Below, in pieces: positions 2,843 to 10,902 of a DNA stretch of 33,947 nt. Numbering within the stretch: position 1 is the first letter of the stretch; the number at the start of each line of letters is the position of its first letter. The DNA lies in assembly GCA_021736255.1 (NCBI GenBank), contig JAIPGG010000019.1:1-33947 (forward strand), read 5' to 3'. The DNA comes from Spirochaetales bacterium. Lineage in GTDB: Bacteria > Spirochaetota > Spirochaetia > JAIPGG01. Made by a program: the position numbers and the translations under genes. A model generated the notes under the pieces. That model was given only the letters and a program-made list of their open reading frames with translations, did no database searches and had not been told where the DNA came from.

Positions 2843-2907
2843 GCCCCGATCTTAGGTGAAACGGAACGGATATGGTTCAAAACAAACAGCCTGACCCTTC
2901 TTGAATC

Positions 2908-2921
2908 CTACGAATATGTAG
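2908..2921. promoter_or_regulatory. Dyad CTAC-GAATAT-GTAG (extended TCCTAC-N6-GTAGGA), candidate activator site 1
   Basis: Perfect inverted repeat read directly, in the argS-gltB intergenic region. Confidence 0.55.
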
Positions 2922-2938
2922 GACGGCCCGCTATGAGT

Positions 2939-2952
2939 CTACATCCTGGTAG
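2939..2952. promoter_or_regulatory. Dyad CTAC-ATCCTG-GTAG, candidate activator site 2
   Basis: Same CTAC-N6-GTAG architecture, offset exactly 31 bp from site 1. Confidence 0.5.
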
Positions 2953-3080
2953 GGCCGTGAACGTGCTGTTTTCCCGCTCAGCGTCTCTATTCCGGCAGAA
3001 TAAAGAAAATCACATATAAAAGCCGGCGACCGCCCGGAAAATTCCCGTAATTTCCGATTTAATACGCTCATTCATGTTTA

Positions 3081-3096
3081 TGGCATGGAAATTGCA
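3081..3096 (+). promoter_or_regulatory. Sigma54 (-24/-12) promoter TGGCATGGAAATTGCA for gltBD
   Basis: Matches TGGCACG-N4-TTGCA at all but one position; GG at -24 and GC at -12 if +1 is ~3107. The gltB Shine-Dalgarno and ATG (3145) lie downstream. Confidence 0.8.
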
Positions 3097-3144
3097 ACAA
3101 ATGTTCCTACGGAAATGAAGGACAGGCTTTCAGGAGGAACAATA

Positions 3145-7853
<4,709 letters not shown>

Positions 7854-7854
<1 letters not shown>

Positions 7855-9296
7855 TGGGAGATCCGAAAGGTTTTTTGAACTACAAACGGGTTACGGCACA
7901 GCTGCGGCCTGTGCACCAGCGGGTCCTGGATTTTCAGGAGGTGAACGAACGGCTCGGCGAACAGGAGCTGCGCAGACAGGGAGCACGCTGTATGGACTGC
8001 GGCATTCCCTACTGCCATGCCCTCGGCTGTCCGCTGGGAAACCTTATTCCCGAGTGGAACGATGCCGTCTTCCGAGGGGACTGGTATGAGGCCTTTACCC
8101 GTCTGGAAAAGACGAATGACTTTCCAGAGATAACCGGAAGAGTGTGTCCTGCACCCTGTGAGGATTCCTGCACCCTGGCTATCAACGATGATGCCGTTTC
8201 TATTAAAGAGATCGAGCTTGCGGTGATCGAGTACGCCTTTCGCCGCGGCTGGGTGCTCCCGGTCCGATCGGCAGGTGCGGTTGCCGCAGGCGCAACACGT
8301 GCGGAGACAGGAAAGCGTGTAGCCGTCGTCGGATCGGGTCCGGCCGGTCTGAGTGCGGCCCGGCAGCTGCGGGTCCGGGGGCACGAAGTGACCGTATTCG
8401 AAAGAGAACAGGAGGCGGGTGGAATTCTGCGTTACGGCATACCCGGTTTCAAGCTGGAAAAACAGGTGCTGGAGCGCCGGATCGATTTGCTCCGGCAGGG
8501 GGGAGTGAACTTCGAAACGGGAGTAACCATCGGAGCCGATCTCTCGGCCCGTTACCTTTTTAAAAAATTTGATGCAGTGCTCCTTGCTACCGGGGCAGGG
8601 ACGCCTCGGGACCTGGATGTTCCGGGCCGGGGGTTGGAGGGAGTCGTCTTTGCCATGGACTATTTGGGCGCTTCTGCTGTGCATAGCTTCGGAGTCCCGG
8701 CACATATGAACGCCCGGGACCGGGACGTTCTGGTTATCGGCGGCGGAGATACCGGTTCCGATTGTGTGGGAACGGCAATCCGCCAGGGAGCTTCGACGGT
8801 TACCCAGGTCGAAATTCTCCCCAAGCCGGAACAGGCCCTCGAACCGGGGAATCCCCGCTGGCCCTACCGGCCGGGGACGCTCAAAACATCGAGTTCCCAT
8901 CAGGAGGGCTGTGAACGCCGTTGGAATACAGGAACCCTGAGCTTTGCATCCGAGTACGGGCGGGTCGAGAGAACGGAAATTGCCGATCTTGCCTGGAAAA
9001 CGGACAAAAACGGGAGGCGCAGTTTTGAGGTGATTCCCGGAAGCGAGCACTGGATAAAGACTGATCTTGTCGTGCTGGCGATGGGTTTTCTGCACACCGA
9101 ACACGGCCAATGGCTGGATGAGCTGGGGATCGCCCTCGACGAACGGGGAAATATCAAACACGAAGCATACCGCTGCAACGAAGGGGGCGTTTTTGTTGCG
9201 GGAGATGCGGCTGCCGGGGCCTCGCTGGTTGTAACGGCCTTCCATCACGGCCGGGAAGCGGCCCGGCAGGTGGACGAGTATCTTGTCAGCGGATAG
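7854..9296 (+). CDS. gltD: Glutamate synthase small subunit
   Basis: ARCMDCGIPYCH, GRVCPAPCEDSC, Rossmann VVGSGPAGLSAA; TGATG overlap with gltB. Confidence 0.95.
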
Positions 9297-9318: not shown

Positions 9319-10902
9319 ATGACGGTAGAGCAATCGGATGCTCAGCGAAAGATCAATGAACTCTCTCTCCTGTTTGAAATCAGTCAGGTCCTCGATCAGA
9401 GTCTTGATCTCGAAGAGGTAATGCATCCGGTATTCCGCGCTATTTCAGAACACCTGGGAATGCATCGGGGTGTAATTACGCTCTTGGACCGAAAAAGCGG
9501 AGAGATCTTTATCGAGAATGCCTACGGTCTGTCGCCGGGAGAACAGCAGCGCGGCAAGTATCGCCTCGGAGAGGGGATAACCGGCCAAGTGGTCAAGACC
9601 GGGAAACCCCTGGTTATTCCCAAGGTCGCCGACAACCCGGATTTTCTGAACCGAACCGGCGTTCTGTCCGAGTCCGAGAAAGAAGACATCTCGTTTATCT
9701 GTGTTCCGGTGAAAATCGGAAACGAGACGATCGGGACCTTGAGTGTAGACCGTCTCTTTGCCGAAGAGGTGAGTCTCGACGAAGACCTTCGGCTGCTCTC
9801 GATTATTGCATCGATGATTGCTCAGGCTGTCCAGCTGCGCCAGTCGTTGAAAGAAGAGCAGCGGCGTCTGGAAGAAGAGAATTCCCGTTTGAAGGAAGAG
9901 CTTCAGGACCGTTTCCGCCCGTCCAATATTATCGGAAATTCCGCTGCAATGCAGGAGGTCTACAACCAGATAGCCAAGGTGGCCGCCGGCAGCACAACGG
10001 TTTTGATCCGGGGGGAGAGCGGGACCGGTAAGGAGCTTGTTGCTCATGCCCTCCACTATGCGAGCGCCCGGGCCCATGAGCCCTTTGTAAAGGTCAACTG
10101 TTCCGCGCTGCCGGAAACGGTTATCGAGAGCGAACTCTTCGGACACGAAAAGGGGGCCTTTACCGGCGCCGTGAACCGGAGAAAGGGGCGTTTCGAACTG
10201 GCTCACCGGGGAACGATTTTCCTCGACGAGATCGGGGACCTATCTCCCATGATGCAGATCAAGCTCTTGCGGGTGCTCCAGGAGCGCGAAATCGAGCGAG
10301 TAGGGGGAGTCGAAACGATTCAGGTCGATGTTCGTGTCATTACCGCTACCAACCGGAATCTCGAGGAGCTGATGGCGAGCGGACGTTTCCGCGAGGATCT
10401 TTACTACCGTCTCAATGTCTTTCCCGTGCATATTCCCCCGCTTCGCGACCGGAAGGGAGACATCCTCCTTCTTGCCGACCACTTTGTGGAGAAGTACAGC
10501 AAAACGAACGGAAAACAGGTCAAGCGCATATCCACCCCTGCAATCAATCTTTTGACCATGTATCACTGGCCGGGGAACGTCCGGGAATTGGAAAATTGCA
10601 TCGAGCGGGCCGTACTTCTGAGCTCCGACGATGTTATTCACGGGTATCATCTGCCTCCGAGCCTTCAGTCCGCCGAATCCTCCGATACGGCATTGGAGGG
10701 TACCCTCGAAGAGGCCCTGGACAAGCTCGAGAGGGAATTGATTGTTGAAGCATTGAAAATGAGCAGGGGAAATATGACCGCAGCCGCCCGAAACCTCGGA
10801 ATTACCGAGCGGATAATCGGTCTGCGGGTCAAGAAGTACCGGATCGATCCTCGAAATTATCGAGGCGGCCCATCTATTGATCCATCTCTTGACCCCCAAT
10901 AG
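9319..10902 (+). CDS. NifA-like sigma54-dependent activator (GAF-AAA+-Fis HTH)
   Basis: GESGTGKELVA, GAFTGA loop, ALPETVIESELFGHEKGAF, C-terminal Fis-type HTH (NMTAAARNLGITERIIGLRVKKY). Listed start 9283 is TTG; ATG 9319 is preferred. Confidence 0.9.
   Translation: MTVEQSDAQRKINELSLLFEISQVLDQSLDLEEVMHPVFRAISEHLGMHRGVITLLDRKSGEIFIENAYGLSPGEQQRGKYRLGEGITGQVVKTGKPLVIPKVADNPDFLNRTGVLSESEKEDISFICVPVKIGNETIGTLSVDRLFAEEVSLDEDLRLLSIIASMIAQAVQLRQSLKEEQRRLEEENSRLKEELQDRFRPSNIIGNSAAMQEVYNQIAKVAAGSTTVLIRGESGTGKELVAHALHYASARAHEPFVKVNCSALPETVIESELFGHEKGAFTGAVNRRKGRFELAHRGTIFLDEIGDLSPMMQIKLLRVLQEREIERVGGVETIQVDVRVITATNRNLEELMASGRFREDLYYRLNVFPVHIPPLRDRKGDILLLADHFVEKYSKTNGKQVKRISTPAINLLTMYHWPGNVRELENCIERAVLLSSDDVIHGYHLPPSLQSAESSDTALEGTLEEALDKLERELIVEALKMSRGNMTAAARNLGITERIIGLRVKKYRIDPRNYRGGPSIDPSLDPQ

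Follow-up and report, generated by a model that had tools for sequence, protein, structure and literature searches.

A phased dyad pair and sigma54 promoter upstream of gltBD point to a GS-GOGAT regulon under a NifA-type activator in spirochaetes

The window analysed here is a stretch of 33,947 nucleotides from the genome assembly of a Spirochaetales bacterium (contig JAIPGG010000019.1). It carries the genes for the large and small subunits of glutamate synthase, gltB and gltD, and directly after them the gene for a one-component activator. The interval between argS and gltB contains a putative regulatory region comprising two dyads and a sigma54-type promoter element. The features discussed below are:

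2908-2921, no strand: distal putative activator dyad, CTACGAATATGTAG, identified by sequence match and by the conserved pair in relatives; in its extended form, TCCTAC-N6-GTAGGA, it spans 2906-2923
2939-2952, no strand: proximal putative activator dyad, CTACATCCTGGTAG, 31 bp from the distal dyad
3081-3096, plus strand: sigma54 -24/-12 promoter element, TGGCATGGAAATTGCA, with a predicted +1 near 3107
3132-3137, plus strand: Shine-Dalgarno sequence of gltB, AGGAGG
3145-7854, plus strand: gltB, glutamate synthase large subunit, the first target gene, with its ATG at 3145
7854-9296, plus strand: gltD, glutamate synthase small subunit
9319-10902, plus strand: one-component activator with a GAF domain, a sigma54-interaction AAA+ domain (GAFTGA) and a Fis-type helix-turn-helix (HTH), the candidate binder of the dyads

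The promoter element shows both the GG and the GC of the consensus, correctly spaced, and apart from TGGCATGGAAATTGCA at 3081-3096 no sequence of the window fits TGGCA-N6-TTGCW exactly. The original prediction of a sigma54 promoter ahead of gltBD, exact at this position, is strengthened by its conservation in relatives (see below), and the rpoN gene that it presupposes was found when the genome was searched. On re-reading, the predicted dyads lie exactly at 2908-2921 and 2939-2952, 31 bp from start to start, and their centres are correctly placed near -193 and -162 relative to a +1 at about 3107. CTAC-N6-GTAG occurs nowhere else in the window; dinucleotide shuffles of the same sequence lead one to expect 0.15 copies, and two were reached in one shuffle out of 100. 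A separate feature of the window is the N-terminal part of its first gene (71-1036), which is of low complexity, rich in Gly and Ala, and resembles a tandem repeat (GSAGSAGSAG, GGTGGKGSAG).

The reading frame of the activator is open from 9283, with the ATG at 9319 as the likely start, and its product combines the GAF domain, GAFTGA-bearing AAA+ domain and Fis-type HTH expected of a sigma54 activator. The NCBIfam NifA model (TIGR01817) scores 559.5 bits against a cut-off of 528.85, over an alignment of residues 27-458 that stops short of the HTH. The NtrC model falls far below its cut-off (358 vs. 559 bits), and a receiver domain is lacking. With a threshold of E<=1e-175, 147 of the 395 genomes of the class Spirochaetia match the regulator, for the most part over its full length and with some 53-72% identity, and a phylum-level search recovered orthologues in some other classes as well. 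Around the recognition helix, pair-bearing spirochaetes conserve (S/T)ER-x-MGLR (TERIIGLR in the window); in deltaproteobacterial homologues, which are more distant, the helix is TVRKFSYK or TERKFVYK. A generic AAA+ peptide search of genome contigs returned mostly unrelated activators, with informative loci confined to L116-L123. One of these (L122) is a Desulfovibrionaceae homologue of 55% identity that has the spirochaete-type helix and adjoins glnN and gltB; only degenerate, dyad-like sequences occur at this locus, ahead of a sigma54 site, and the combination gives only a hint that helix and operator may be matched. At another, from Acidobacteriales (L120, 11512-12100), the homologue is 56% identical, and immediately downstream of it come a sigma54 promoter and what reads as nifH.

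A lone CTAC-N6-GTAG carries little information. Genome-wide the single dyad occurs at 37 sites, compared with 33 for the reversed control, which is background, and for the 35 dyads elsewhere in the genome, no sigma54 site lies closer than 350 bp; evidence must therefore rest on the pair, the promoter and their conservation. A genome scan for the single dyad is uninformative, and the pair followed by a -24/-12 element proved to be the usable signature. The phased pair, unlike the single dyad, is significant. Allowing any spacing of 26-36 bp, exact pairs were found in 35 of the 395 Spirochaetia genomes (draft assemblies), whereas the reversed control, counting any match, gave 15 genomes. These 35 genomes, from 25 genera, hold 42 exact pairs, and in 39 of the 42 the spacing is about 30-32 bp (total pair length 44-46). 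The consensus from 38 modules with at most two mismatches is CTACATWWATGTAG; since many of these loci were chosen by the exact pattern, the weight matrix is partly circular for the fixed arms, and the spacing peak is less biased. This conserved spacing strengthens the proposal of a helically phased pair of upstream activator sites.

Conservation upstream of gltB was compared across 39 Spirochaetia genomes and scored against dinucleotide shuffles. Where a -24/-12 element is present, a pair of dyads spaced by 28-34 bp reaches a shuffle p<=0.005 in 13 of 15 genomes; where it is lacking, the pair reaches this level in two of 24. Lack of conservation before orthologous gltB genes, named at the outset as evidence against the operator, was thus not what we found. 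The GltB proteins of the compared relatives are mostly about 50-63% identical over the matched stretch, and their intergenic DNA has no visible resemblance to the window apart from the shared arrangement. Because pair and promoter are kept despite distant GltB proteins and otherwise dissimilar intergenic DNA, selection seems to maintain the arrangement. In two genomes, G026 and G012, gltB is preceded by dyads but not by a sigma54 promoter. Other signals also occur in these regions. At five dyad-less loci (L020, L024, L025, L027 and L028) a different palindrome, TGGCAA-N4-TTGCCA-like, lies a short way ahead of the gltB start and is likely a separate repressor operator. Sequences similar to TATGCATAAATATACA, resembling an ArgR box, occur near the gltB promoter at L021, L022, L031-L034, L036 and L044, sometimes alongside the sigma54 site.

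The genes that follow the pair are largely those of ammonium assimilation. By reading of flanking genes, 38 of the 42 exact pairs stand before gltB (14), glnN, encoding glutamine synthetase (GS) III (12), glnA, encoding GSI (6), or amtB (6), and downstream of most there is a sigma54 promoter, strong in the majority. Of the residual pairs, two precede a permease gene (BPD_transp_2) and a gene whose outer-membrane-like product matches no Pfam family, one follows directly on the regulator gene at the end of a contig and has a sigma54 site, and that of G266 looks like a chance match. The same reading of flanking genes placed no identified nif gene behind any of the 42 pairs. Among 23 sigma54-like sites in the window's own genome, the pair accompanies two, at gltB and at glnA. 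At glnA (L226, L240; G000 contig C47) the dyads are degenerate, spaced by 30 bp and followed by TGGCATAACACTTGC, and this glnA is the sole glutamine synthetase gene found in an assembly that is 81.8% complete. Searches of the same assembly (G000) for AmtB (PF00909) and PII (PF00543) gave no match to these customary partners in nitrogen signalling, which may reflect its incompleteness; such missing matches are unusual beside a sigma54-controlled GS-GOGAT regulon. Taken across the class, the dyad pair is predicted to be a conserved docking site at GS, GOGAT and ammonium transporter genes of spirochaetes. In one Treponema metagenome-assembled genome (L123, 11550-13780), the regulator, dyads, sigma54 site, amtB, a gene that by eye is PII-like, and glnN all occur in one stretch.

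The likely binder of the dyads is the GAF-AAA+-Fis activator encoded at 9319-10902, as the original prediction had suggested, and this assignment is upheld by both gene position and co-occurrence. Fifteen of the other 41 exact pairs lie within 2.1 kb of an orthologue of the regulator gene, 11 at no more than 90 bp from where that gene ends (G066, G098, G133, G201, G231, G286, G289, G295, G300, G350 and G362) and four about 2 kb away (G003, G016, G028 and G279). The regulator adjoins amtB in several relatives, and at L047, L050, L051 and L055 the sigma54 promoter between the two genes bears one or two dyads. At E<=1e-175 the regulator is present in 30 of the 35 pair genomes vs. 117 of the 360 others (Fisher p 9e-10, uncorrected for shared ancestry, which together with incomplete assemblies confounds this comparison and also the conservation of the pair). 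Among the five pair genomes below threshold, G362 has the regulator beside its pair with a match just over the E threshold, G243 has a fragment at a contig edge, two are incomplete assemblies, and one holds a chance match.

Several sigma54-activator homologues are encoded per spirochaete genome, and some pairs have no recognisable sigma54 promoter, so that another protein, either a different sigma54 activator or a repressor, might occupy the dyads while the 9319-10902 product acts elsewhere. We judge this unlikely. The adjacency of 15 pairs outside the window to an orthologue of this very regulator, the strong co-occurrence of pair and regulator, and the conservation of the recognition helix in pair-bearing genomes, matched in the Desulfovibrionaceae homologue beside glnN with its dyad-like sites, all point to the 9319-10902 product instead. 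The dyads follow directly on argS and could form short RNA hairpins, yet that they act as an RNA element, as hairpins in tandem at the 3' end of argS serving as terminator or attenuator, is scarcely credible: both a terminator-like site and a T run are absent, folding is no better than that of shuffles (z -0.35), and the pair lies upstream of the promoter and recurs away from argS, before glnA, glnN and amtB, which rules out a feature of the argS 3' end. A chance pair beside a genuine sigma54 promoter, conceivable given that single dyads are at background frequency, is extremely improbable, since phased pairs are kept across many families and are mostly confined to nitrogen-assimilation genes.

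We consider it highly likely that this region provides a gltB-gltD-regulator operon with its enhancer and sigma54 promoter, and that a NifA-type one-component activator runs a GS-GOGAT regulon. Under this proposal the activator would bind both CTAC-N6-GTAG dyads as dimers, which, three helical turns apart, would sit on the same face of the DNA; the bound activator would then oligomerise, loop to sigma54 polymerase at 3081-3096 and drive open-complex formation. A nitrogen signal would presumably enter through the GAF domain. The sites, their spacing and conservation, the target genes, and the regulator's linkage and co-occurrence are evident from sequence; that the protein binds, that the DNA loops, where transcription starts and how the signal enters are inferred. 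The operator-promoter module shared with glnA would join the GS-GOGAT cycle into one regulon, which in relatives would extend to glnN and amtB. The regulator directly follows gltD in the window; the relatives have the order gltB-gltD-rplU, with no regulator in it. Because it abuts gltD, the regulator is probably co-transcribed with gltBD as the third gene of the operon and autoregulated, and as a member of its own target operon its activation should feed back positively.

In function the regulator resembles two known activators, Leptospira EbpA and Desulfovibrio DVU1949. The latter presumably acts on amtB and on the genes for glutamine synthetases and for glutamate synthase. EbpA of Leptospira interrogans is a sigma54 activator with GAF that is needed for amtB transcription and for growth under nitrogen limitation (PMC12655853). 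The EbpA-RpoN system is thus like that of the window in pairing a spirochaete sigma54 activator and GAF input with control of amtB. Compared by description, EbpA differs in being FhlA-like with two GAF domains, and amtB and two lipoproteins have been reported as its targets. No CTAC-N6-GTAG operator is reported in the EbpA-RpoN texts consulted, a review (PMC12655853) and a map of transcription start sites (PMC5243855). Desulfovibrio vulgaris DVU1949 is a one-component sigma54 activator with a predicted nine-operon regulon labelled nitrogen metabolism and transport; it comes from another phylum, and the likeness is by description, the motif being given in a figure only (PMC4641369). For a relationship with DVU1949 or a motif in common, the L122 locus provides no more than an indirect hint. 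The operators of FlrA and DVU2894, GTCA-N6-TGAC in the same source (PMC4641369), are alike in geometry, with two 4-bp arms 6 bp apart and a Fis-type HTH activator, but differ in arm sequence and in function (flagella). In the open-access texts searched, which take in few subscription papers, neither a CTAC-N6-GTAG operator nor this spirochaete regulon was found described. The suggestion of an undescribed operator stands to that extent, qualified by the similar regulon already predicted for DVU1949, whose motif appears in a figure only.

The regulator shares with NifA a GAF and AAA+ region above the model cut-off, paired upstream sites and a sigma54 promoter. It differs in that the model match stops before the HTH, the recognition helix is another one, and the targets are ammonium-assimilation genes; the conserved operator, as originally noted, is not the NifA site TGT-N10-ACA, from which CTAC-N6-GTAG departs in both sequence and geometry. 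NtrC regulates genes for ammonium assimilation, glnA and amtB among them, through sigma54. The likeness to NtrC lies in this regulatory role, while the window regulator has GAF input and no receiver domain, and another operator than the NtrC consensus. A NifA-type protein seems, judging from sequence, to do the job of NtrC in these spirochaetes, and an automatic NifA label on regulators of this type would mislead. Experiments on spirochaete sigma54 have, to our knowledge, mostly dealt with Borrelia and Leptospira; for many further families the present analysis names a regulator, an operator and a set of targets through which ammonium assimilation can be tested. One recognition helix tied to one operator would also provide a handle for decoding the specificity of Fis-type HTH domains.

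One family, f41, departs from the sigma54 arrangement at gltB. Five of its genomes (loci L096, L097, L100, L101 and L257 in G187, G223, G151, G243 and G235, respectively) have an exact pair in the argS-gltB interval and lack the sigma54 element. At all five loci a promoter like TTGACS-N17-TAAGAA (also TATCTA, TAATAA), sigma70-like in form, begins a few bases past the proximal dyad. Members of f41 retain the pair and sigma54 site before amtB and glnA, and their regulator keeps GAFTGA. One activator and one operator may serve two promoter classes within a single regulon, the f41 activator also acting on (or repressing) sigma70 polymerase, or else the pair may have outlived a promoter switch; the two-class reading is tentative, and we lean somewhat against it. 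The f41 promoter switch offers a route to testing a change of promoter class under a constant activator. The sigma70-like promoter of this family is followed by TCGATATTTATGC, which resembles an ArgR box.
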